From: Pedobacter gandavensis | GTDB lineage: Bacteria > Bacteroidota > Bacteroidia > Sphingobacteriales > Sphingobacteriaceae | Direction: 5' to 3' | Length of the DNA: 64,000 bases | Assembly: GCF_014172405.1 (NCBI RefSeq) | Contig: NZ_WNXC01000001.1 | Location: 1,736,001-1,800,000 of the forward strand | Shown here: positions 11,503 through 34,364 of the stretch, in pieces | Layout of the letters: each line of letters begins with the position of its first letter | Position numbering within the stretch: the first letter of the stretch is position 1 | The notes under the pieces: model-generated | The model's database searches: none | Told to the model about the DNA's origin: nothing | Seen by the model: only the letters and a program-made list of their open reading frames with translations | Translations under genes and position numbers: made by a program

Positions 11503-12921
11503 ATGAAAAAAGCAACTACATACATCTTCCTGTTACTAATCGTTTCTTCAACATCTATTTTTGCTAAAAGTAATGTTTCAGATTCAATCAGCTTTACAGT
11601 ACACTTAAAAGCAAAAGAGACGATCAGGCTAAACTACCTAAATGAATATCTTATACCGGTAGCATTGTCCTTTAAAAATCATTCCATTAGAGATTCGACT
11701 TTTTCAAAAAAAATAGGCTCTACAAAACCAATAGAATTTCGTTATAGCTTACTAGATATAGATCACAACAAACGTTACTATTACAATTTCATTTTAAGCC
11801 CAGGAGATGACATTTCATTAAAACTTCAAGACAATTTTGAACTCATTTCTGACCAAAATAATAAACTGATTTTTGCTAACAAGGTGCTAAACTTGTATAA
11901 TGTTTTCGACGAGAAACAAAGTGAGTATACAGGGCAAATAATCAATTCTGGTATAGAAAAATATGATTCGTATCTTAATGGTGTCTATACAGCTAATGTA
12001 AGAAGAATAGATAGCCTAGTTAAACTTGACCTAATTACCAACAAAACGGAAAAAACTTGGAGAAATATCATTTTAACAGATTACTATAGACAATTATTCT
12101 ATCCAATCTATATCACCCATTCCTCCGCTAAAAAAGCCATTGAGTTCAAGAAAAAAACATTAGATGCTAAAGAGCACATCCAACAATTACAGAAAGTCAA
12201 TAGCTATGGATTTAAAGATTTGTTAAATAGTCTTATAAGATACGAGATGTTGCTCTTAGGTAAAACAAAAAATGACTTAGATTTCTATACGCAATATCTT
12301 TTCAAGTCAAATTATTCATCAGATATAATCTTAGGCTCACTGATTGAAAAATTTAATACTTATCCAGAGAAAAACTCAGTTGCATTCATGAAGGCTTTTG
12401 ATGAATTCAAAAACTTCTGCAAGAAAAATGGGAAAGAAGAAATAGCAAGTCAATTGTCTTCTAAATACTACCCATCGAATGCTGTTTACGACAAAATACT
12501 TCTAGTCAATGCCGCTGGCAAGTCATCAACACTTAACGAAATTCTAAAAAAAGAAAAGGGTAAGATTATATTCATTGACCTATGGGCAAGTTGGTGTAAA
12601 CCATGTCGAGCTGAAATACCTGTATTAGAAAAAATAAAGAAAAAATTCCCGGCTCAGCATATAGAATTTATTTCCATTAGTTTGGATAAAAACGCAGCCA
12701 CAAAAGCATGGGAAATGGCAATGAAACAAGAAAACCTAACAGATCCTCATCAGTATAGAATGCTGGATGTAAGTAATCTGGATTTATCCAAAGCTTTCCA
12801 AGTCAAAAGCATTCCCCGCTATTTAGTTTTTGATCGCAATGGGAATACATTAAATGATAACTTCCCAAGACCTTCAGATGGAAAATTTGAAACTCAACTT
12901 CAGAATTATTTGAAATTGTAA
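11503..12921 (+). CDS. TlpA-like thioredoxin-domain protein
   Basis: The 472-residue exported protein has a signal peptide (residues 1-21, ending SIFAK). A long lineage-specific helical region follows (about 30-340), and then a C-terminal thioredoxin fold (about 345-470) with the active-site motif WCKPC in LWASWCKPCRAEIP and the cis-Pro segment SIPRY. The layout is that of Bacteroidota TlpA/ResA-like disulfide reductases with a DUF4369-like N-terminal half. They reduce disulfides in the periplasm. The gene is AT-rich compared with the following loci and has the remains of a paralogue directly upstream, so it belongs to an unstable, perhaps recently acquired, gene pair. A weak hairpin at 12971-13001 may end its transcript. 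Confidence 0.85.
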   Translation: MKKATTYIFLLLIVSSTSIFAKSNVSDSISFTVHLKAKETIRLNYLNEYLIPVALSFKNHSIRDSTFSKKIGSTKPIEFRYSLLDIDHNKRYYYNFILSPGDDISLKLQDNFELISDQNNKLIFANKVLNLYNVFDEKQSEYTGQIINSGIEKYDSYLNGVYTANVRRIDSLVKLDLITNKTEKTWRNIILTDYYRQLFYPIYITHSSAKKAIEFKKKTLDAKEHIQQLQKVNSYGFKDLLNSLIRYEMLLLGKTKNDLDFYTQYLFKSNYSSDIILGSLIEKFNTYPEKNSVAFMKAFDEFKNFCKKNGKEEIASQLSSKYYPSNAVYDKILLVNAAGKSSTLNEILKKEKGKIIFIDLWASWCKPCRAEIPVLEKIKKKFPAQHIEFISISLDKNAATKAWEMAMKQENLTDPHQYRMLDVSNLDLSKAFQVKSIPRYLVFDRNGNTLNDNFPRPSDGKFETQLQNYLKL

Positions 12922-12972
12922 CCCGTATTTTAAAGAAGAAGAAATTCCAGGAGTTGACCAATAAATAAACTT
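12908..12972 (+). repeat. Imperfect direct repeat of 11394-11462
   Basis: The last codons and the 3' flank of the TlpA-like gene are repeated upstream of it, in the relic at 11364-11462. Identity is highest over the first 30 bases and fades afterwards. It shows a former tandem gene duplication. Confidence 0.5.
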
Positions 12973-13069
12973 CTACTGCTATCCTATTGATGGCAGTAGA
13001 AATTCAAAACTCAATACAAAGAAATATCACTCCTCAACATATGTACATGTTTTAAAAAACAAGCCTCAA

Positions 13070-13077
13070 TACCTTTG
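13070..13077 (+). promoter_or_regulatory. -7 promoter element of the esterase gene
   Basis: TACCTTTG matches TAnnTTTG exactly and lies 26 bases before the ATG at 13104, so the leader would be about 20 bases. The -33 region is weak (TGTTTT). Confidence 0.5.
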
Positions 13078-13103
13078 CTTGTAACAATTAAAACAAGTAT
13101 AAA

Positions 13104-13901
13104 ATGAGAATATTACTCAGTACCCTATCCTTACTCTGTATTGGATTCCAGTCCTTTTCCCAAAAAGTTGATTCCTTAAACATCTATAGCCCTTCCATGG
13201 AGAAGGAAGTCAAAACATTGGTGATTCGTCCCGCCACTCCCACTAAAAAGAAAACACCAACAGTTTACATTCTGCATGGTTACAGTGGCTATCCAAAAAG
13301 AACAATAACCCAAGACATTCCTGCTTTGTTAAAACTTAGCAAAGACCTGAAAATGACCTTTGTTTTACCGGATGGAAATTACGACAGCTGGTATGTGGAC
13401 GGTGAACTTAAAAATTCAAAGTATGAAACATTTATTGCCAATGAACTGGTGAGTTACATTCAAAACCACTACAAATCAGATCCATTAAAAACAGCAATCA
13501 TGGGATGGAGTATGGGTGGTCACGGTGCATTGTATATTGGATCCAGGCACAAAAACACCTTTAAGGCCATTGGAAGTTTATGTGGCGTAATGGACTTTAC
13601 TCCTTATGGAAAGCACTATGGTGTTCCAAAAACACTCGGAGACAACCCGGAAAACTGGACAAAATACACCGTGATGTCTCAAATAGAAAAATTGAAAAAC
13701 ACGCCACAACAAATCCTGATCAGCTGTGGAACAGAAGATCCACTAATCGGACAAAACAGAAAATTACATCAGGAACTGATCACATTAGGTATTCCTCACA
13801 TCTATGAGGAACGACCTGGAGCACACAACGCAGCATACTGGTCTGAAGCGGCAATTACCCAACTACTCCAATTAAATCAATTCTTTGCAGATCATGAATA
13901 G
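13104..13901 (+). CDS. Secreted esterase-D-like alpha/beta hydrolase
   Basis: The 265-residue protein has a signal peptide (residues 1-20, ending SFSQ) and one esterase (PF00756-type) alpha/beta-hydrolase domain. The landmarks are VYILHGYSG (oxyanion region, about 54-62), the nucleophile elbow GWSMGGHG with Ser136, the acid Asp212 in CGTEDPL, and His241 in RPGAHN. These form a complete catalytic triad. Relatives hydrolyse short acyl, acetyl or feruloyl esters or S-formylglutathione. The signal peptide argues for a periplasmic or exported carboxylesterase. The gene stands alone, with its own -7 element and a strong terminator. Confidence 0.88.
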   Translation: MRILLSTLSLLCIGFQSFSQKVDSLNIYSPSMEKEVKTLVIRPATPTKKKTPTVYILHGYSGYPKRTITQDIPALLKLSKDLKMTFVLPDGNYDSWYVDGELKNSKYETFIANELVSYIQNHYKSDPLKTAIMGWSMGGHGALYIGSRHKNTFKAIGSLCGVMDFTPYGKHYGVPKTLGDNPENWTKYTVMSQIEKLKNTPQQILISCGTEDPLIGQNRKLHQELITLGIPHIYEERPGAHNAAYWSEAAITQLLQLNQFFADHE

Positions 13902-14041: not shown

Positions 14042-14884
14042 CTATTTCAACATCACATCAACCAACACCGGGAAATGATCTGAAGGATATTTTCCATGGT
14101 AAGTGTCCGTTAAAATACCCCACCTGCTTGCTGTAAAACCCTTCGTTACAAACACATGATCAATCACACCAAAGCCCTTCACATTTGCACCAAAAGAATT
14201 GAAAGAAGAATTGTTTTCATAGGGATGTTCAACCTGGCTATAAGTATCCTTTAACAAGTCAGATTTAGCCAATATCAGGTAACTATCACTGTTGTGATCT
14301 CCATTTAAATCTCCAGTAAATATTGCAGGAGAAGTTCCTGCGATTTCCTTCATTTTCGCCAAAATCAACTTGCTGCTCTCTACCCTTGCAATTACCCCCT
14401 GATGGTCAAAATGCGCATTAAAATAATAGAACTTCTTGCCACTTCTTAAATCCTGTAGGTATACCCAGGTACAGATCCTGTTGCAGCAAGTAGCATCCCA
14501 ACCCAAACCTGGTTGACCAGGATGTTCTGACAACCAGAAATCGCCTTTTTTCAATAACTTAAATTTATCCTTTCTATAGAATATAGAAGAATGTTCTCCA
14601 CCTTCTTTACCGTCGTCACGCCCAAGACCGTAATGTTCAAATTCCGGTAAAGATTTAGACAGATCATCCAGCTGGTTTTTAAAACCCTCTTGAATCCCGA
14701 AAATATCATACTGATGGAATCTCAGTAAATTAGCGACAACGGGTGCCCGCTGCTCCCATAAATTCCCCACATCACCCCTGTTGTCATTTCGTAAATTATA
14801 AGTTCCAACCACCATTTTTTGAGCGAACAACGGACTAACCGCAAGTAAAAGAAGCACTGCGATGATATTAATTTTTTTCATCAT
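14042..14884 (-). CDS. Secreted endonuclease/exonuclease/phosphatase-family protein
   Basis: The 280-residue protein has a signal peptide (residues 1-22, ending LFAQ) and a complete EEP (DNase I-like) metallophosphoesterase domain. Visible active-site elements are Asn30 (TYNLR), Glu66 (GIQEG), His158 (NAHFDH), Asp192 and Asn194 (GDLNGD) and the C-terminal SDHFP with Asp269-His270. The family cleaves phosphodiesters or phosphomonoesters in nucleic acids, sphingomyelin, inositol phosphates and similar compounds. The gene follows susD by 30 bases and is the last gene of the uptake locus, so it should act on the imported ligand or release it. Its substrate cannot be read from the sequence. Confidence 0.9.
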   Translation of the reverse strand: MMKKINIIAVLLLLAVSPLFAQKMVVGTYNLRNDNRGDVGNLWEQRAPVVANLLRFHQYDIFGIQEGFKNQLDDLSKSLPEFEHYGLGRDDGKEGGEHSSIFYRKDKFKLLKKGDFWLSEHPGQPGLGWDATCCNRICTWVYLQDLRSGKKFYYFNAHFDHQGVIARVESSKLILAKMKEIAGTSPAIFTGDLNGDHNSDSYLILAKSDLLKDTYSQVEHPYENNSSFNSFGANVKGFGVIDHVFVTKGFTASRWGILTDTYHGKYPSDHFPVLVDVMLK

Positions 14885-14914: not shown

Positions 14915-16696
14915 TTACCAACCCAGGTTTTGTCCCAATTTAGGATTCACAATCCGATCCGATTCTGGGATAGGATATAAGTAATTTTTATCCTCAAAGA
15001 CTCTTGTTACCGTCGTTAACCAGGTCAGTTCACCTGAAGTATCATTACTTAAGCGTTGAGGGTTTACACCAGCATTTGTAGTTGGCGCTACGTTGATATA
15101 ATTCACACCGGCAACAGGATTTGCAGGCATCACTTTGTAAAAACATACATCCATTTTACCATCACCATTTAAATCCATCGGAACATCTAATGCCGGAACA
15201 TAAAATCCATTCCAAACTTTAGTCATCAGTTCCCCATGTTTCCACCTCACGATATCATCAAACCTAAGTCCTTCCAGTGCCAGTTCTATCCCTCTTTCCC
15301 TTCTAATTTCCATTAGCGCAGCATCATTAACATCAGGAAAATAATTCTGCTTCATGTAAGCATCTAAAACAGTCGGTTTTGCGTTTAAGCCACCTTTAAT
15401 TCCAGCACGCTGTCTCAAAGCACCAATGGTCTTGGTCCAGTCGGCATCCGTAAAAGTGCCCAATTCCGTCTTTGCCTCTGCATAATTCAACAACACTTCG
15501 GCATACCTTAAAATACTTATGGAATTCACATTTAGAGAACCACCATCATATTTGGTATCATCCAGCGTCCATTTTATGGGCTGATAACCGGTATAAGTAT
15601 AAGAAAAAATTGGAGGAGCTGCTTCTGGTGTGCCACCATTAATCCTTTTATAATCACCCATTCTAATGGTTTGCTGCAAACGTTTATCGCGACCTTTTAC
15701 CTCTTCTACAAATGGCAGCATTTGATACCCTGGCTTACTGGTAAATGGCGTACCATCAATATTCAGGTAAGTATTTACGAAAGTACGCGTAAAGCTTAAT
15801 CTGCTGCCGTAAGTAGCGCTGGTCCAATACCAATTGGCATCATTATAAATAGCAAGATTGGGATCAGCAACCACAGAAAGCATAATTTCTGTACCTACTG
15901 GTGCAGTACTGGTAAACAACTGGCGGTAAGAAAGATCTTCACCACCACTGGTATTCAGGCTAAAGCCCGAAGTCTGCATTGTTTTTTCCGCAGCCGTTGC
16001 AGCCTCATTTAACCACTTATCTGCTGTACCTGTTAAATTCTTTTCCGCATGATATTTCCTGTAAGTCCCCTCGTATAAACAAACCCTTGATTTAAATGCC
16101 ATCGCAACGGATTTAGTGATCAAGGTTTTAGAATTATCACTGGAACGGCTGATATTGGCGATCGCATAATCAAGATCCGCCAATACTGAATCCATTACCA
16201 AAGCACGTGAATCACGTCCACTGTACAATGCAGGATCGTCTACTTTTAGTGTCCTGTTGATCCAAGGTACATCACCATATCTTTTCACCTTCTGAAAATA
16301 GAAGAAGGCACGGAAAAATCTGGCAAGTCCTTGATATTGACTTCTGACCGAGGCACTAACCTTCTGATCAACATTATTTTCAATAAAATAATTAATGTTC
16401 CTCAGTTTCTTCCAATCCCAGCCCTTTTCTCCCTGGGAAGTTCTGGAATTATAAGCACCGGCAACCAGAAAATCCGGCGACTGGCTTCTTGCGCCATAAT
16501 CAGACATTTCATCTCCCCGATGTGTATCATTTGCAGTAGGTAATACTTCATAAAAGGAATTGGCATACAACTCAAGCCCTTTCTCATTGCTAAAAACTGA
16601 AGTCCGGATTGCACTATCTTCAGGTGTCTGATCCAGCTTTTTACAGCCTGCCATAAACACAGCAGAAAAAGCGAACCATAAACAGAATCTTTTCAT
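14915..16696 (-). CDS. SusD/RagB-family outer-membrane lipoprotein
   Basis: The 593-residue protein begins with a lipoprotein signal (residues 1-18, ending VFMAGC, Cys18). It has the usual SusD layout: an N-terminal TPR-like helical part with LRNINYFIEN and GLARFFRAFFYFQKVKRYGDVPW, and a C-terminal part with SILRYAEVLLNYAEAKTELG and ALMEIRRERGIELALEGLRFDDIVRWKHGE. SusD proteins are surface lids that capture the ligand for the SusC channel. The gene follows susC by 32 bases. Ligand class is unknown. Confidence 0.95.
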   Translation of the reverse strand: MKRFCLWFAFSAVFMAGCKKLDQTPEDSAIRTSVFSNEKGLELYANSFYEVLPTANDTHRGDEMSDYGARSQSPDFLVAGAYNSRTSQGEKGWDWKKLRNINYFIENNVDQKVSASVRSQYQGLARFFRAFFYFQKVKRYGDVPWINRTLKVDDPALYSGRDSRALVMDSVLADLDYAIANISRSSDNSKTLITKSVAMAFKSRVCLYEGTYRKYHAEKNLTGTADKWLNEAATAAEKTMQTSGFSLNTSGGEDLSYRQLFTSTAPVGTEIMLSVVADPNLAIYNDANWYWTSATYGSRLSFTRTFVNTYLNIDGTPFTSKPGYQMLPFVEEVKGRDKRLQQTIRMGDYKRINGGTPEAAPPIFSYTYTGYQPIKWTLDDTKYDGGSLNVNSISILRYAEVLLNYAEAKTELGTFTDADWTKTIGALRQRAGIKGGLNAKPTVLDAYMKQNYFPDVNDAALMEIRRERGIELALEGLRFDDIVRWKHGELMTKVWNGFYVPALDVPMDLNGDGKMDVCFYKVMPANPVAGVNYINVAPTTNAGVNPQRLSNDTSGELTWLTTVTRVFEDKNYLYPIPESDRIVNPKLGQNLGW

Positions 16697-16728: not shown

Positions 16729-19700
16729 TTAAAATGTGGCTGTAAAACCGATGCTATAGCTCTTTAACTGCGGATAGTTATTTCCATTTCCACCACCTTC
16801 AACATTCCCGATACTTTCCACGTCAATGTCTTTCGTGATTTTATATAGTGGTGAATAGGTCCAAATATTTTCTCCGGAAAGCACCAAACGCGCTGAACTT
16901 AAACCGACTCTTTTCACCAGGTTTACTGGAAGGTTATACCCTACCTGAAGGTTTTTAAGACGGATATAAGCCACATTCTGTATGTATTTAGATTGCGCTT
17001 GCAGCTCTCCTGAACCATTCTGCGCTACATAGCCACGGAGCCTTGGGAAATAAGCATCCGGATTGCTTTCTGACCACATTTTGTCTTGCATAGATTTAGG
17101 GATCTTATTGTAAGGGCGATTGTACTGTCCCCAGAAAAGACCATTATCAGCCCCTGGATACCAATCCATTTTACCTACACCCTGGAAAAAACTGCTGAAG
17201 AAGAAACTTTTCCATTGTGCACCTAAGGAAATACCATATGTATATCTAGGCGTAGAATTACCAATCACCTTTTTATCTCCAGGATTATCAACGGTATTAT
17301 CGCCGTCATTAATTACACCATCACCATTCAAATCTTTAAACTTGATGTCTCCAGGCAATAGTTTACCACTGTTTGATGCCTTAGTTAAGATCTGTTTTGC
17401 AGAGTTCGCAATGTCTTCCGCAGAAGTAAAATAACGATCCGTATCATATCCCCAGATCTCTCCGTAATTTTGTCCGGCATAGAAGTCTGTCAGCCTTTTC
17501 TGAGGATTATTGTATTTGGTGATTTTAGCATTATAATCTGCTAGTGTTAAGCGGATGTCGTAGGTTAAAGGACTTCCTGATACCGCAAACTGATCTCTCC
17601 AGGAAATGGTTGCTTCCCATCCTTTCGTAGTTAAATCAGCATAGTTACCTTTAGGCACATCTGTTCCAAAAACTGCAGGAAGGGTCATCCCTACGGTAAA
17701 CATATTTTTAGTCTTTCTAACGTAAGCATCTCCACTAAAATTCAGGCGGTTGTTCAGGAAAGCCAGGTCAAGACCAATGTTTGTGGTTTGAGAAGTTTCC
17801 CAGGTTAGACCATCAGGTAATACTCCCGGCTGACTCGTATACTGAGGTCTCACCCCATTCAATATCCTGCCAGATTGCTCAATTTTAAATTTCTCCTGAA
17901 AAGCATAAGAAGCGATACTTCCATTTCCTAATGATCCGTAAGAAGCCCTTAATTTCATGTCGCTGATGATATTCTTATTTACCTTCCAGAATGGCTCCTG
18001 GCTTACTCTCCAACCTGCAGAAAAAGAAGGGAAAAAGTCATAACGCTGATCCGAAGGGAATTTTGAAGAACCATCATACCTACCATTTGCTTCAAATAGA
18101 TAGCGATCTTTATAAGCATAATTTACGCGGTAAAAACCACCCAATACAGCCCATTGATCATAACCGCCAGCAGTAATAATAGACTGTCCAAGGGCAAGAT
18201 TAATGTCCTTAGCATCATCAAAAATCAACCCGTTACGCGAAGCCAGCAGGCGTTTATAAGTGGATTGCTCATAATTATATCCTGCCAATACTTTGACAAA
18301 ATGATCCTTGCTGAATTTAGGTTCATATTCGCCATAAATATTAGATGCCAAATATTGTGTAGTACGGTCAGTCTGTTGGAAATCATTTGTATTGCTTCCT
18401 ACGTATTCTATGACACCCGGTTTTCTGCTGTAAGCAACAGGTACGCGCACGCGGGTATCATCATTTGTGGTTTGCTGAAAAGTAAGGTCTCCTTTAACCC
18501 TGAATTTATCATTAAAAAACTGACTGCTGAAACCTGTGGTATTTCTGAATACTTTTTTATCAGAGGTTGTACCGTTTTTCGCGGTATAATAATCTCCAAC
18601 AGTATACGCAGCTGTGTAAGTTAATGTGCCATCAGGATTAAACATTGGCGCCACATTATGCCCTTCATCAGAAAGGTTTCTGAAAATTCCGCCACCCTCT
18701 CCAACATTCAATGGCGCATAATATTTAATTGCTGAATAATCCATGTTGTTATAAACTTTCAACCAGGAATACAGTTCAGTAGAGCCTTTTGCCCTTAGGT
18801 TATACATCGAATAATCATCAGAATTATACCTAAAAAGACCGGATTGCTTGTAAGACCTACCAGAAATGTAAAAATCAGATTTACCACTTCCACCAGATAT
18901 GGATACATTGTGTTCCATTGCATTGTTATGGTCCTTGAATAGTTCTTTATACCAATCCGTATTACCATAATAAACATACTCCCCATTGGCATTAACTTCT
19001 GTTTTCGGCAGACTTGGATCCGCATCATGACGTTGCAACTCAGCTAAATATTCTGGAGAGAATTTCACTGTCTTATTGATGTTCTGTGGCGTTTGGGAAT
19101 AGTCATTCCAGGCAGACCATGCTTCATTGAAACCTTTTGCAAACTCATAACCATTGGTGACTAAGTTTGGAATGCTGGTTGGTGATTTAATCGCCCCTAA
19201 AAATGAATAAGTGATCGAAGTTTTATCTTTCTGTGGATTTTTTGTCGTGATTAAAACCACACCGAAAGCAGCCCTGGCACCATAAATCGCCGCTGATGAG
19301 GCATCTTTCAATACCGTTACCGTAGCCACATCGTTTGGATTAATCCTTGAAGGATCCCCTTCCACACCATCAATTAAGACCAAGGCACTACCACCTTGTC
19401 CGATTGAGGTGGTACCCCTAAGGTTATAAGAAGGACTTTGGTTTGGCCTGCCATCTGAAAGGGAGATGTTTAAATTAGGAATCACCCCTTGTAATCCTTG
19501 AGAAAGATTCGCAATAGGTCTGTTCTCAAAAACCTTTGAAGTGACCTGATCTACAGCACCCGTCAGGTTTTCTCTTTTTTGTGTACCATATCCAACAACC
19601 AACACCTCGTTCAGCGTCCCCGTTTCGGCAACTAAAGAAATATTCAGTTTAGTCATTTCTCCTGGTTTCACCACAACTTTACTATAGGTTGCGCTGGTAA

Positions 19701-20229
19701 AAGAAATAAAACTGGCCACTAAGGTATAAGTACCCGGTGCCGCAGAAATGGAATAAGAACCATCAGGATTACTCTGAACGCCTCTGTTCAATTCAAGAAT
19801 TTTAATACTTGCACCAGGCAAAGGATCACCCTTTTCATCCAAAACTTTACCAGTGATTTTTCCAGGTTCCTGGTTTTTCATCAAGGTAATTACGCCTGGT
19901 ACTTCTTCAGAGAAGATTAGTGAGGTGTTGGACAATAAGGAGGTCAAGATATCAGCGATCTTATCATTGGAATAATCGATCTCCTCCACCCTGATATTTT
20001 TTAACTTTAAATAGGCCGGATCATAAGCAAAGTCGACGCCACTCAAGCGCTCGAGCTTTTGAACAGCGGTCAGTAAGCTCTCGTTTTTAAAAGAAATGTT
20101 AATACGCCGGTTTAAAATCTGACCGCTGGTATTTCCTGCTAACAACACCTGTGTACTGGTGAGGATAAGGACATAGACAATGAGGGTATAACGCATAATT
20201 TTCTGCAGCAGCAGTAAATGTTTTTTCAT
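16729..20229 (-). CDS. SusC/RagA-family TonB-linked outer-membrane transporter
   Basis: The 1166-residue protein has a signal sequence (about 1-32). An STN (secretin/TonB short N-terminal) domain follows at about 45-120 (FKNESLLTAVQKLERLSGV). Next come a carboxypeptidase-regulatory-like domain at about 125-205, a plug (about 215-330) with VLVVGYGTQKRENLTGAV and VTVLKDASSAAIYGARAAFGVVLITTK, and a large beta-barrel. The STN domain shows that the transporter also signals to a FecR anti-sigma factor, which is encoded just upstream. I start at ATG 20227-20229 (MKKHLLLL); the in-frame TTG at 20247 adds six residues with no support. SusC imports the ligand captured by SusD, powered by TonB. Confidence 0.95.
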   Translation of the reverse strand: MKKHLLLLQKIMRYTLIVYVLILTSTQVLLAGNTSGQILNRRINISFKNESLLTAVQKLERLSGVDFAYDPAYLKLKNIRVEEIDYSNDKIADILTSLLSNTSLIFSEEVPGVITLMKNQEPGKITGKVLDEKGDPLPGASIKILELNRGVQSNPDGSYSISAAPGTYTLVASFISFTSATYSKVVVKPGEMTKLNISLVAETGTLNEVLVVGYGTQKRENLTGAVDQVTSKVFENRPIANLSQGLQGVIPNLNISLSDGRPNQSPSYNLRGTTSIGQGGSALVLIDGVEGDPSRINPNDVATVTVLKDASSAAIYGARAAFGVVLITTKNPQKDKTSITYSFLGAIKSPTSIPNLVTNGYEFAKGFNEAWSAWNDYSQTPQNINKTVKFSPEYLAELQRHDADPSLPKTEVNANGEYVYYGNTDWYKELFKDHNNAMEHNVSISGGSGKSDFYISGRSYKQSGLFRYNSDDYSMYNLRAKGSTELYSWLKVYNNMDYSAIKYYAPLNVGEGGGIFRNLSDEGHNVAPMFNPDGTLTYTAAYTVGDYYTAKNGTTSDKKVFRNTTGFSSQFFNDKFRVKGDLTFQQTTNDDTRVRVPVAYSRKPGVIEYVGSNTNDFQQTDRTTQYLASNIYGEYEPKFSKDHFVKVLAGYNYEQSTYKRLLASRNGLIFDDAKDINLALGQSIITAGGYDQWAVLGGFYRVNYAYKDRYLFEANGRYDGSSKFPSDQRYDFFPSFSAGWRVSQEPFWKVNKNIISDMKLRASYGSLGNGSIASYAFQEKFKIEQSGRILNGVRPQYTSQPGVLPDGLTWETSQTTNIGLDLAFLNNRLNFSGDAYVRKTKNMFTVGMTLPAVFGTDVPKGNYADLTTKGWEATISWRDQFAVSGSPLTYDIRLTLADYNAKITKYNNPQKRLTDFYAGQNYGEIWGYDTDRYFTSAEDIANSAKQILTKASNSGKLLPGDIKFKDLNGDGVINDGDNTVDNPGDKKVIGNSTPRYTYGISLGAQWKSFFFSSFFQGVGKMDWYPGADNGLFWGQYNRPYNKIPKSMQDKMWSESNPDAYFPRLRGYVAQNGSGELQAQSKYIQNVAYIRLKNLQVGYNLPVNLVKRVGLSSARLVLSGENIWTYSPLYKITKDIDVESIGNVEGGGNGNNYPQLKSYSIGFTATF

Positions 20230-20286
20230 TTGTATTTTAATTTTCAAAGCCCGGGAACCAGCATATAAAATGCCCTTTAGAGTTCC

Positions 20287-20294
20287 TATCTTTG
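20287..20294 (+). promoter_or_regulatory. -7 element for an antisense RNA in the susC leader
   Basis: TATCTTTG on the plus strand matches TAnnTTTG exactly. It points away from susC and toward the terminator at 20361-20390. No plus-strand gene exists that it could serve. The -33 element is not convincing. Confidence 0.45.
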
Positions 20295-20299
20295 ATCAT

Positions 20300-20390
20300 G
20301 AACAAAAAATAATTGTTTTGCAATTGCCAAGGGCTCAATCTATGCAATTGCTTAGTACAGGCCGGTTCTGCTTCAGAACCGGCTTTTTTT
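20300..20390 (+). ncRNA. Predicted antisense small RNA opposite the susC leader
   Basis: The interval between a perfect -7 element (20287-20294) and a strong plus-strand terminator (20361-20390) would give an RNA of about 90 bases. Its 5' part contains two copies of the palindrome GCAATTGC (20320-20327 and 20344-20351) that can pair into a hairpin. Its 3' end is a GC-rich hairpin plus seven T. It is transcribed opposite the untranslated leader of susC and contains no reading frame. Small RNAs at this exact place, between the anti-sigma gene and susC, are known in Bacteroides (DonS type), where they repress the locus. Existence and role here are prediction. Confidence 0.5.
20361..20390 (+). 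terminator. Rho-independent terminator in the fecR-susC gap (plus strand)
   Basis: GCCGGTTCT (20361-20369) pairs with AGAACCGGC (20375-20383) around a five-base loop, followed by seven T on the plus strand. The neighbouring genes are both on the minus strand, where the hairpin has no T run after it. It therefore ends a plus-strand transcript rather than fecR. Confidence 0.75.
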
Positions 20391-20397
20391 CCTTTGC

Positions 20398-21366
20398 TTA
20401 GTAAATGATTATACCATTTTCGGTCCTCCTGTATTTTTTGTGGTGTATAGAACAGATAATTTTCAAGGTTTGGGAAAGCGTATGCGTCGAACGCATCTGA
20501 ATATTATATTGATAACTGGCTACATTGGGATCCTTGCTGCTTAGAGAAACTCCATAATAAAGCTTGACGATCCGGGCGACCTCTTCAAAGCTTCCCTGAT
20601 TGAGCTCTGTGCTGAGCTCATGCCACTGGCTATTTTCAGCCAGACCAAAATCTGCCTGCTTCCAGGCATGGGAACGAAGATTATAGTTTAACTTTTTTCC
20701 AGGCAGCAACTGAGCCAACACATTTTTCTGTGTTGCAACCTGTACTTTACCTTCAGTTACACTTACCTCTATTGCGGCAGCTCCCTTTGTAGCGGTATAA
20801 TTGCTGACTTTAAATTTAGTCCCCAGTACTTTCGTGACGATTTCCCCGGAATACACTAAAAAAGGACGTCCAGGATCTTTAGCGACTTCAAAAAAGGCTG
20901 TTCCTTTTTTTAAAAATACAGTCCTCGAAGCCTGCTTATCGAAGCGCTTCGCAATTCTAAATTCACTGGATGGACTTAGGTGTACGATAGATCCGTCTGT
21001 CAGGGTGAGTTTTTTACTTTCTGAAGCCTTGGTGGAATACAAAACATAGCTTGGTAAATCCTTAGTCTTATCTCCGATTTCCTTTGCTTTGAATAAAACC
21101 CCAACAGTAATCAGCAACACCGCAGCAGCGGCATATGAAATTATTTTGCGCCAGTTTGCCAAACGATGCAACGCTGTCTCTTGCTCAGGAGCAATTACCG
21201 CAAACATCTCGGCTTTAATCCGATTGGCATCTGCCTCGTCCTGGAAACCACTGAATTCCTCTGCATCGTAAGATTCATACCATCTCTCCAAATTCAACTT
21301 TTCAGCTGATGTCAGTTTATTTTCACTGAACCGTTTTAGTATATCTTTAAATTCTTGTGATTCCAA
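20398..21366 (-). CDS. FecR-family anti-sigma factor
   Basis: The 322-residue protein has a cytoplasmic N-terminal sigma-binding part (residues about 1-85), one membrane helix (about 92-110, IISYAAAAVLLITVGVLF), a periplasmic FecR domain (about 118-220) with SKKLTLTDGSIVHLSPSSEF and FFEVAKDPGRPF, and a C-terminal DUF4974 domain (about 250-320) that meets the STN domain of the transporter. It holds the ECF sigma factor inactive until SusC is occupied by ligand. It lies 68 bases after the sigma gene and 168 bases before susC, the usual order for this signalling system. Confidence 0.94.
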   Translation of the reverse strand: MESQEFKDILKRFSENKLTSAEKLNLERWYESYDAEEFSGFQDEADANRIKAEMFAVIAPEQETALHRLANWRKIISYAAAAVLLITVGVLFKAKEIGDKTKDLPSYVLYSTKASESKKLTLTDGSIVHLSPSSEFRIAKRFDKQASRTVFLKKGTAFFEVAKDPGRPFLVYSGEIVTKVLGTKFKVSNYTATKGAAAIEVSVTEGKVQVATQKNVLAQLLPGKKLNYNLRSHAWKQADFGLAENSQWHELSTELNQGSFEEVARIVKLYYGVSLSSKDPNVASYQYNIQMRSTHTLSQTLKIICSIHHKKYRRTENGIIIY

Positions 21367-21434
21367 TCTATTGCCCTTTTTAGATAAGTAGCTTGGAAAG
21401 GCAGGATTTACTTATAGAAATCGTTAAGTGTTTG

Positions 21435-22037
21435 TTAAGAAATTATGAACCAGTTCAGTTCTATAACGAAAAATGCCAGGATTACCCATTCCGGATATTT
21501 TGAACCTAATTTAACGCGGATTCTGCGCAGGGCTTCGGATAGATGATTAGAAACCGTCTGTTCTTTTAAGTTTAACTTTTGTGCAATTTCTGCAGTAGAA
21601 TGCTGTGCCGCTTTTAACAGATAGGCTTCTTTCATCTTGTCGGGAAGCAAGGCTACTTCTCCGGCGATTATTTTTTCCAGCTCAAAATAACCATCAAGGT
21701 TATTTATAGTTGTCATTTCTTCAAAACGCTGGATGGTACTTTCCAACACTTTATCTTTTATCTTCTCTGACCTGAAATAATTAAACACCTGAAACCTAAC
21801 CGCTCCATTTAAATAATGTTCGATTTCTGTATGAATCCTAATCGTTTCACGTCTCTGCCAGATGTTAATGAAAACATTCTGAATAATATCTTTTGCCGCG
21901 GCTTCATCTTTAACCCTTTTATAAGCATGGATGTATAAGCTCCGCCAAAATTTTTCATATAGGGTAGCATATGCAGCATGATCACCGCTTTGGAGCGCGC
22001 TAATTAATGCTGATTCATTTAATACTGTCATTGGCAT
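21435..22037 (-). CDS. ECF-family RNA polymerase sigma factor
   Basis: The 200-residue protein has sigma region 2 (about 28-85, with YKRVKDEAAAKDIIQNVFINIWQ as the core signature) and region 4 (about 125-182, with HSTAEIAQKLNLKEQTVSNHLSEALRRIR as helix-turn-helix). A hydrophobic tail of about 16 residues follows (WVILAFFVIELNWFIIS), as in many FecR-partnered sigma factors of Sphingobacteriaceae. It should direct transcription of the susC locus when released by the FecR protein. A perfect -7 element lies only four bases before the ATG at 22037, so the mRNA may be leaderless or use the second ATG (22031). Confidence 0.94.
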   Translation of the reverse strand: MPMTVLNESALISALQSGDHAAYATLYEKFWRSLYIHAYKRVKDEAAAKDIIQNVFINIWQRRETIRIHTEIEHYLNGAVRFQVFNYFRSEKIKDKVLESTIQRFEEMTTINNLDGYFELEKIIAGEVALLPDKMKEAYLLKAAQHSTAEIAQKLNLKEQTVSNHLSEALRRIRVKLGSKYPEWVILAFFVIELNWFIIS

Positions 22038-32478: not shown

Positions 32479-32502
32479 AATTTTTTCTTTGTCTTAAACA
32501 GA

Positions 32503-34239
32503 TTAAATATTTTGTTTTTTCTTTTCGTCCAGGATGTACTCCGCAGTTCTCATAGAAAGTGCAAGAATGGTCCAGGTTGCGTTTTTATCTCCTTGCTGAA
32601 CGAAAGGCGCCGCATCTACCACGAATAAGTTTTTACATTCATGTGCCTGACACCATTTATTCAATGCTGATTTTTTAGGATCATCACCCATTCTGATCGT
32701 ACCCACCTCATGGATGATCTTTCCTGGAGCCTCTAGGCCATAGTTCGTTTCCGGACCAGGGATATCAGAAGTAATGATGGCACCCATTGCATGCATCATA
32801 GACTGGAAGGTCTCCTGCATGTGTTTCGCTTGCTTGATTTCCTCATCAGCCCATTTATAATTGAACCTCAATACAGGAATACCATATTTGTCGACTACTT
32901 TAGGATCTATTTCGCAATAATTAGATTCTCTGGCAATGGCAGTTCCCCTGCCGGCCATACCTACCCCAGCACCGTAGAAACGTCTTATATCGTCTTTAAA
33001 ATCCGCACCGTAACCGCCTGCTTCTTTCATTTTACCGTCTCTTCCCGGTACCATACCATTTAATTTAGCAGTACCACCGCCAAATCCATAAGCTGGCATT
33101 CCCATACCACCCCAATATTCAATATGATAACCACGAGGGAAATCCAGTTTTTTATTGTCTAACCACCAAGGTGAATAAATGTGCACACTACCTACACCGT
33201 CTTCATTGTAACGCTTACGGTCCATCAGTTGAGGTAGGAAACCACTTAAACTAGCACCAGTAGAATCGTGCAGGTATTTACCTACAATCCCGCTACCATT
33301 GGCCAAGCCACCTGGGTGAGCAACAGATTTAGAGTTCAACAAGATACGTGCAGACTCACAGGCACTCGCGCCCAAAATCACTGTTTTCGCATTTACCTGG
33401 TATTCTAAACCGTCTTTTTTATTAATGTAAGAAACGCCTGTTGCCAATCCGTTTTTATCGGTTAACACTTCGCGAACCATCGCATCCGTAATTACCGTTA
33501 AATTTCCGGTCTTTACAGCAGGAATTACTAAACACGATGAAGAAGAGAAATCACCATATACCTTGCAACTACGTCCACATTGTCCGCAGTAAAAACAAGG
33601 TGCACGATCCTTATTACCTGGTAAGGCTTCTGTTAAAACAGATCCTCTACCTGGAATAACGGTCACCCCGGTCTTTTTTCCTGCCTTCTTAATGAACAGC
33701 TCATTTAGCCTTGGCTTTGGAGGCGGAAGGAAGATTCCATCTGGTTCATTTTCGATCCCTTCTACAGATCCGTAAACCCCAATAAGGCGGTCTACCTTGT
33801 CATAAAAAGGTTTTAGCTCATCATACGTAATAGGCCAGTCGTCGGTTAGTCCATCCTTACATTTAAAATCCAATGGACCCATTCTTAAGGAGATTCTACC
33901 CCAGTGGTTGGTTCTACCACCAAGCATTCTTGACCGGAACCAGGCAAATTCTGTTCCTGATTTTTGTGTATAAGGTTCGCCATCTAATTCCCAACCTCCA
34001 TATGAGGCGTCAAAATCGCCAAAAGGTCTGGTGGTACCTGCGCCACGTCTAGGAGATTCCCATGGCCATTTTAACTGTTGTGCGTCGATTCTTGGGTCGA
34101 AATAAGCACCAGCTTCAAGCATCAGTACTTTTTGACCGGCATGAGCCAATACGTATCCGGCCATACCTCCGCCTGCTCCAGACCCTACGATGACAACATC
34201 GTAGACGGTAGACGATTTTTTGATTTGAAATTCACTCAT
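32503..34239 (-). CDS. GMC-family FAD-dependent oxidoreductase
   Basis: The 578-residue flavoprotein has the FAD-binding GxGxxG motif at its start (VVIVGSGAGGGMAGYVL, about 15-31), the GMC N-terminal region with RSRMLGGRTNHWGRISLRM, a Cys-rich ferredoxin-like CFYCGQCGRSC (about 210-222), and the C-terminal HEVGTIRMGDDP with the family's His, followed by NLFVVDAAPF. It lacks a Tat signal of its own, so it is probably exported with the following subunit-3 protein. Such pairs oxidise sugars or sugar-like alcohols (gluconate, glucoside-3 or similar); which one cannot be told. Confidence 0.92.
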   Translation of the reverse strand: MSEFQIKKSSTVYDVVIVGSGAGGGMAGYVLAHAGQKVLMLEAGAYFDPRIDAQQLKWPWESPRRGAGTTRPFGDFDASYGGWELDGEPYTQKSGTEFAWFRSRMLGGRTNHWGRISLRMGPLDFKCKDGLTDDWPITYDELKPFYDKVDRLIGVYGSVEGIENEPDGIFLPPPKPRLNELFIKKAGKKTGVTVIPGRGSVLTEALPGNKDRAPCFYCGQCGRSCKVYGDFSSSSCLVIPAVKTGNLTVITDAMVREVLTDKNGLATGVSYINKKDGLEYQVNAKTVILGASACESARILLNSKSVAHPGGLANGSGIVGKYLHDSTGASLSGFLPQLMDRKRYNEDGVGSVHIYSPWWLDNKKLDFPRGYHIEYWGGMGMPAYGFGGGTAKLNGMVPGRDGKMKEAGGYGADFKDDIRRFYGAGVGMAGRGTAIARESNYCEIDPKVVDKYGIPVLRFNYKWADEEIKQAKHMQETFQSMMHAMGAIITSDIPGPETNYGLEAPGKIIHEVGTIRMGDDPKKSALNKWCQAHECKNLFVVDAAPFVQQGDKNATWTILALSMRTAEYILDEKKKQNI

Positions 34240-34364
34240 ATATTTGGTTGAATGGTTGATGATCTAATATTATAAAAATATCACTAAATATGCAAATAGC
34301 TGAATCAAGAATGAATCTTAATAAGCATCATCATCGATATGTAAACAAAAAAATACACGTGAAA

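Follow-up and report, generated by a model that had tools for sequence, protein, structure and literature searches.

Known and predicted antisense RNAs opposite susC genes

The closest described systems are the DonS-like antisense RNAs of Bacteroides, which are 78-128 nt long and are encoded opposite susC homologues (PMC7366714). They are known at 15 PULs in B. fragilis (cited in PMC9723704) and as 32 RNAs in B. thetaiotaomicron (PMC10994844). DonS was reported to repress its own locus in B. fragilis, and its mechanism is described as unknown (PMC11697453). Canonical -7 promoters were assigned to 52% of the cis-antisense candidates of B. thetaiotaomicron (PMC7366714); the -7 element TAnnTTTG is common in the DonS type but not strictly defining. 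Host-glycan PULs are typically under the control of ECF sigma and anti-sigma factors (PMC11697453). Both positive and negative correlations were reported for pairs of antisense RNA and PUL in Bacteroides, and the authors ask for a functional characterisation of the class (PMC10994844). In B. thetaiotaomicron, which has the small RNAs FopS and GibS, FopS-10 binds several susC mRNAs in their 5' regions, and the translation of one of them is blocked. A transcript map of Flavobacterium psychrophilum contains 287 antisense transcripts, which may include susC-linked RNAs. In the literature searched (titles and beginnings of abstracts) no report of a susC-linked antisense RNA outside Bacteroides was recognised.

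The window analysed here is a 64,000-nucleotide stretch of Pedobacter gandavensis (contig NZ_WNXC01000001.1, positions 1,736,001 to 1,800,000), a host from another family of the phylum than Bacteroides. In its fecR-susC gap a short folded antisense RNA is very probably made. The best explanation is a DonS-type cis-antisense RNA that acts as a brake on susC, a reading given a probability of about 0.75 from sequence comparison and from analogy with the Bacteroides RNAs. The place fits this type, as the initial annotation had proposed, and so does the size: the RNA would lie antisense to the 5' end of a susC homologue, and its predicted ends give about 90 nt, within the range of 78-128 nt, with a median of 99 nt predicted for relatives. 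Unlike the DonS type, the window RNA is predicted to start about 70 bases upstream of the susC ATG, so that just the distal leader is covered. The RNA is a member of a family, defined by sequence and structure and known from sequence alone, in which a loop is conserved; it is likened to DonS by place and length. The same architecture was also found within the order of Bacteroides, in gaps of Parabacteroides gordonii and other Bacteroidales.

FopS and GibS resemble the window RNA in being small and terminator-ended (as predicted here). FopS works by a shared 5' seed and has a single-stranded 5' part ahead of its terminator hairpin, whereas two hairpins are predicted for the window RNA, which unlike FopS is encoded opposite its presumed target. 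Neither FopS nor GibS was among the 17 Rfam matches (E up to 10) in positions 20200-20420, in a library which may lack both.

The locus and its plus-strand unit

The homologues of ECF sigma factor, fecR, susC and susD all lie on the minus strand (Pfam, NCBIfam; Table 1). The 168-base length given earlier for the fecR-susC gap was recovered from the fecR stop at 20398 to the first susC ATG at 20229; the susC frame in the ORF list begins at a TTG at 20247 and not at this ATG. The susC product carries about 130 residues ahead of its CarboxypepD domain, which look STN-like by eye, and the Pfam search reported no match to STN for it. The next gene after susD on the minus strand (14042-14884) encodes an endonuclease/exonuclease/phosphatase family protein (PF03372) and no glycoside hydrolase, which hints at a substrate other than a plain polysaccharide.

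Table 1. Positions, in the window, of the genes at the locus and of the parts of the predicted antisense unit.
Feature	Position	Strand	Evidence and remarks
ECF-type sigma factor	21435..22037	-	PF04542, PF08281 and TIGR02937 above cut-offs
fecR-type anti-sigma factor	20398..21366	-	PF04773 and PF16344 above cut-offs
susC homologue (TonB-dependent receptor)	16729..20229	-	TIGR04056, 790.7 bits; Plug and CarboxypepD_reg; likely cis target
susD homologue	14915..16696	-	PF07980, 132.3 bits
-7 promoter box TATCTTTG, TAnnTTTG type	20287..20294	+	pattern match; TAnnTTTG also in 12 of 12 congeneric gaps examined
Predicted antisense RNA, about 90 nt	20300..20390	+	conserved unit; start inferred from the -7 box
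First hairpin, GCAATTGC (20320-20327) paired with GCAATTGC (20344-20351)	20320..20351	+	fold and covariation
Conserved apical-loop sequence GGGCTCAA	20331..20338	+	kept or nearly kept in 5 genera, with changing stem sequence
Intrinsic terminator, hairpin 20359-20385 overlapping T run 20384-20390	20359..20390	+	fold; compensatory and GU changes

The unit was found as first described. The putative promoter box TATCTTTG is present on the plus strand at the coordinates given in the initial annotation and lies 58 bases away from the susC ATG; a -33 motif is not evident. The stretch behind it, said to lack a reading frame, lies in a gap without any ORF of at least 60 aa, which argues against a coding unit. 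Two plus-strand ATGs were seen by eye. One of them opens a frame of four codons; the frame of the second (in CTATGCAATT) continues into the terminator, and the nearest relative does not have it. The plus-strand terminator is as strong as described, with 12 pairs, 7 of them G-C, a loop of 3 and the T's that follow, and it has the most pairs among the four terminators found in 19000-22000. Likewise, it does not appear to serve fecR, given that the minus-strand continuation after the hairpin holds no T run. The two copies of GCAATTGC had been noted as palindromes; both exist, and to that description it is now added that they pair with each other to form the first hairpin.

Neither the box nor the fold would identify the unit by itself. 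With 62 occurrences in the window, TAnnTTTG is slightly rarer than in shuffles, where 76 are expected, so the -7 box alone is uninformative. The z score of the folded gap stretch is -4.6 on the plus and -4.0 on the minus strand; folding energy alone therefore cannot pick the strand, and it is comparison that decides.

Conservation and covariation

The gap together with the end of fecR was searched as DNA and matched at 15 places in 14 of the 145 genomes of the genus, the own genome included, with no DNA match at E 0.001 in the other 131. Two places with matches of just 25 and 55 bases (L022 and L023) were set aside, and the remaining 13, the window and 12 congeners, were used as orthologous gaps. 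All 13 share one order of TAnnTTTG, hairpin, terminator and T run. The initial annotation would have taken the RNA as refuted if close relatives had lost the -7 box and the terminator; both are kept in all 12 congeneric gaps, and the alignment of these gaps shows box, hairpin and terminator conserved. The commonest stem of the first hairpin is CAACAG/CTGTTG with the loop AGGGTCTCAA, and the terminator apex is CTGCTTCAG or CTGCTGCAG. The -7 box falls on the susC start codon itself (CATATATTTG) in 10 of the 13 gaps (10 of 12 congeners). The remaining three, those of the window and of the congeners G114 and G086, have the box TATCTTTG, which stands 58 or more bases from the susC ATG.

A covariance model, R1, was built from the 13 orthologous gaps. 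It matched 23 of the family's 399 genomes, spread over 5 of 25 genera; ten of these 23 matches are training sequences, and the list of matches lacks three of the 13 training genomes, which were not drawn or did not pass the stricter filters. Among the 13 non-training matches (L074-L086), 11 lie between FecR and SusC homologues and 2 have a SusC homologue only. Across 27 aligned sequences (24 distinct, 5 genera), standard pairs fill 96.8% of pair cells and 13 of 17 pairs show two-sided changes, figures to be read with the alignment having been fitted to the plus-strand structure of R1, which favours standard pairs, and GU over AC. When partners were slid by 1-3 columns, pairing fell to 20-39% of cells. 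All six modelled pairs of the first helix have two-sided changes in some sequence, with 95.1% of cells paired. In the MAFFT alignment of the 13 gaps, two-sided changes are seen in 4 of 17 pairs.

The strand was assigned from wobble pairs. On the plus strand the large alignment holds 25 GU against 1 AC and the small one (13 sequences) 15 GU against 0 AC, both counted on the structure predicted for the plus strand. This GU excess, together with the T run, assigns the RNA to the plus strand, and the reading of the unit as an RNA gene antisense to the susC leader is supported by these comparisons.

The family of the window unit matched no Rfam family at the gathering score, and the sole match at that score in the window is a tRNA, which leaves no known riboswitch, leader or sRNA there. 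The best sub-threshold match in 20200-20420 is NsiR4, with 21.6 bits against a gathering score of 40. Copies of the gap elsewhere in the own genome were also sought, and merely matches of 14 to 37 bases were obtained; six of them were inspected and look unrelated, two being other terminators. A further short match is the 55-base one in the congener G114 (L023, contig C46, 1501-1555). It has 82% identity to the window's -7 region and overlaps a long, unrelated minus-strand ORF at that ORF's 3' end.

Antisense terminators in fecR-susC gaps

Further comparison was extended to fecR-susC pairs in general. A terminator was called from at least 5 pairs and a T-rich tail at -12 kcal/mol or better, in gaps of at least 40 bases, a rule which misses some terminators and passes weak tails. 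The first ATG of the ORF was taken as the start codon throughout. The own genome has 31 FecR_C matches, of which 28 were examined; two matches inside ORFs of more than 1100 aa (L062, L063) and one match without a locus were left out. One of the 28 loci has no next ORF and at four the next ORF is not SusC-like, which gives 23 pairs; the gap measures 40 bases or more in 22 of these. A named set of relatives, selected by similarity to the window FecR, comprised 80 loci kept of the 576 that encode a relative, with 78 pairs and 72 gaps of at least 40 bases. From four genomes mostly the best-scoring FecR_C matches were taken: 20 of 57 in Parabacteroides gordonii, 20 of 67 in Chitinophaga solisilvae, 11 of 14 in Flavobacterium pectinovorum and 9 of 28 in Runella zeae. 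Of these 60, 56 were counted and 4 dropped (no next ORF, a next ORF that is not SusC-like, or a gap below 40 bases). The search of 41 Bacteroidales genomes yielded 28 loci, of which 24 were given, 18 were SusC-like and 10 had a gap of at least 40 bases; the gap is below 40 bases in 8 of these 18 pairs. Since several of the counts include related genes, they do not represent independent events, and the sets may overlap.

Antisense terminators were found in 16 of the 22 gaps of the own genome, where sense terminators number 0 and 0.1 would be expected from shuffles. One of the 16 (L040) has a tail with just 5 T in 8, after CG. Among the named relatives across the phylum, 45 of 72 gaps have an antisense terminator and 2 a sense one, with 0.5 expected. 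By the same rule, 6 of 22 and 27 of 72 gaps, respectively, have no antisense terminator. The antisense count is 14 of 20 gaps in P. gordonii (sense 0), 17 of 19 in C. solisilvae (sense 0), 6 of 9 in F. pectinovorum (sense 0), 7 of 8 in R. zeae (sense 1) and 6 of 10 in the other Bacteroidales (sense 1).

As a control, 78 co-directional gaps of 60-350 bases from 464 kb of the own genome were used, with 7 antisense and 15 sense terminators. Antisense-only terminators occur in 2 of these 78 gaps, this locus included, hence in 1 of the other 77. A second control consisted of susC genes without fecR in the own genome: loci were available for 30 of 74 SusC matches, and 22 of these have no fecR, although one of the 22 (L192) resembles a fecR-linked paralogue. 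An antisense terminator was found for 1 of the 22 when the 300 bases upstream of susC were examined. For antisense-only terminators in the own genome Fisher's test gave p ~1e-12, with paralogues taken as independent. By these comparisons, antisense terminators are tied to fecR-linked susC genes, and signs of the antisense arrangement were found at most such pairs sampled in Bacteroidota. The initial annotation knew of no antisense RNA at this locus; the locus is by no means singular, since most sampled fecR-susC gaps have an antisense terminator. The other antisense-only control gap (12921-13103) holds a minus-strand hairpin of 17 pairs followed by T's, between the plus-strand genes 11503-12921 and 13104-13901.

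A putative promoter on the susC start codon

At many of these loci the antisense -7 box coincides with the start codon of susC, in the form CATAnnTTTG. An exact overlap of TAnnTTTG with the susC start codon was found in 11 of 22 gaps of the own genome and in 17 of 72 named gaps. The corresponding counts are 14 of 20 in P. gordonii, 9 of 19 in C. solisilvae, 4 of 9 in F. pectinovorum, 5 of 8 in R. zeae and 5 of 10 in the other Bacteroidales. Among controls the box lies on 2 of 332 gene starts of the own genome and on 0 of 22 starts of susC genes without fecR; Fisher's test of the box against gene starts in the own genome gave p ~2e-13 (paralogues again taken as independent). With the usual spacing from -7 to start, a box on the start codon would place the RNA start about 12 bases upstream of that codon. 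At such loci the RNA would run through the whole susC leader.

In the 55 gaps with both signals the predicted RNA has a median length of 99 nt (quartiles 86 and 113, range 41-258). The part ahead of the terminator folds at z < -2 in 34 of 49 bodies, drawn from the own, named and four-genome sets, and at z > 1 in none. A 5' seed shared among paralogous RNAs, as in FopS, was looked for and rejected: the commonest 7-mer occurs in 6 of 22 own leaders against 7 of 332 controls. RNA leaders of other genomes share other words, mostly AT-rich. Neither the start-codon promoter nor a spread beyond Bacteroides was found in the papers searched, and the phylum-wide link to fecR, the start-codon promoter and the covarying family with its conserved loop are here taken as new.

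An antisense -7 box (CATATATTTG) also lies on the plus strand at 34239-34246, exactly on the start codon of the minus-strand gene 32502-34239. No terminator was seen by eye after this box, and the N-terminus encoded by the gene resembles an oxidoreductase.

Relatives without fecR

Two relatives, G057 (same genus) and G184, have kept the RNA and its loop with no FecR upstream of the susC homologue. The antisense RNA family is thus present at loci (L075 and L077, the latter in G184) whose SusC homologues have a short N-terminus, with about 40-46 residues before CarboxypepD where the window homologue has about 130. Next upstream, G057 has a divergent gene whose sequence resembles malic enzyme, and in G184 a Trans_reg_C regulator stands in FecR's place. 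The best matches to the window FecR reach E 4e-25 in G057 and E 5e-17 in G184, compared with E 1e-55 and 1.5e-52 for the FecR at the locus in G434 and G223. Because G057 and G184 have kept the RNA, it is not a mere by-product of the fecR arrangement, and the retained loop is hard to explain as a cognate ECF promoter. In both genomes a sigma factor encoded elsewhere may exist.

Proposed action and alternatives

The comparisons demonstrate a conserved plus-strand unit and a link of such units to fecR-linked susC genes; how it would act is a matter of analogy. The main sigma factor would read the plus-strand promoter, and the product would be a non-coding transcript of about 90 nt from between fecR and susC, with a free 5' part, one structured hairpin bearing the conserved loop, and the terminator hairpin. 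The susC mRNA would carry the complementary sequence in its leader. As long as FecR holds the ECF sigma factor, antisense transcription, together with pairing to susC mRNA that arises through leakiness or read-through, could keep the transporter low; once the substrate frees the sigma factor, strong sense transcription would override the antisense brake. Action could be by pairing, by transcriptional interference or by both. Pairing with the susC leader, as first proposed, would apply to the distal leader, to which the RNA is antisense, but not to the start codon, which it leaves uncovered. With a start about 70 bases upstream of the ATG, blocking of the start codon is unlikely at this locus; convergent polymerases may interfere with each other, or the RNA may pair with the distal leader, and either fits better. 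Repression is not certain either, since some antisense-PUL pairs in Bacteroides correlate positively (PMC10994844).

Several other readings were weighed against a cis-acting RNA. A chance arrangement of a -7-like box and a hairpin agrees with the box alone being as frequent as expected, but it is already contradicted by the conservation and covariation at orthologous gaps and by the Fisher test on antisense-only terminators in this genome (p ~1e-12 with paralogues counted as independent), and can be practically dismissed. It is also conceivable, although unlikely, that antisense transcription itself lowers susC through convergent transcription or promoter occlusion, with a terminator that merely shields fecR from read-through. 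The frequent -7 box on the susC start codon suits such interference, as does the mechanism of DonS being described as unknown (PMC11697453). Against it stand the compensatory changes that the first hairpin shows ahead of the terminator, and the folding at z < -2 of 34 of 49 RNA bodies without their terminator, which together suggest that the RNA structure itself is under selection.

Conservation of the loop raises the question of a mainly trans-acting RNA, in which the GGGCTCAA loop or the 5' end would bind another RNA or a protein in the manner of FopS. Complementarity in cis needs no conserved letters, yet the loop is kept while the stems diverge, and it is kept in G057 and G184, with neither a fecR at the locus nor a close homologue of the window fecR. 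The weakness of any 5' seed shared among paralogous RNAs speaks against this reading, which is regarded as quite improbable. Alternatively, the conserved letters could belong to the sense strand, as an attenuator, a stabiliser or a cognate ECF promoter of the fecR-susC mRNA; in the promoter version the loop (sense TTGAGCCC) would be the -35 box and CTNAG the -10. In its favour, TTGAGCCCT-N11-13-CTTAG occurs once in each of 5 of the 10 genomes tested and always inside the R1 match. The ratio of GU to AC of 25 to 1 on the plus strand, the T run on that strand only and a loop that is kept where no close homologue of the window fecR was found all oppose a sense element, making it very improbable.

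The preferred reading, a DonS-type brake in cis, can be extended, albeit tentatively and with more doubt than confidence. The antisense RNA may be a phylum-wide fourth part of ECF sigma-FecR-SusC modules, with a main-sigma promoter placed in the susC start codon at many loci; silencing by the main sigma factor and activation by the cognate ECF factor would then issue from a single DNA stretch. In the family of the window the GGGCTCAA loop would have an extra function that persists without fecR. If the pattern is right, antisense RNAs are common to fecR-linked susC loci across Bacteroidota and not a speciality of Bacteroides. Single genomes could then hold many natural variants (22 gaps here, 57 FecR_C matches in P. 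gordonii). The mechanism would thereby become testable, through comparison of loci with a start-codon promoter, with a displaced promoter and with the RNA but no fecR.

A cognate ECF promoter inside the RNA gene was also considered on its own. The motif is absent from the window in the tested form and single-copy in the genomes that have it, which decides neither for nor against such a promoter. In many R1 members outside Pedobacter (L080 and L086, for example) the sense loop TTGAGCCC is followed by CTNAG about 12-14 bases on, a spacing that would suit an ECF-type susC promoter inside the antisense gene. A sense promoter and an antisense RNA could share one stretch of DNA.
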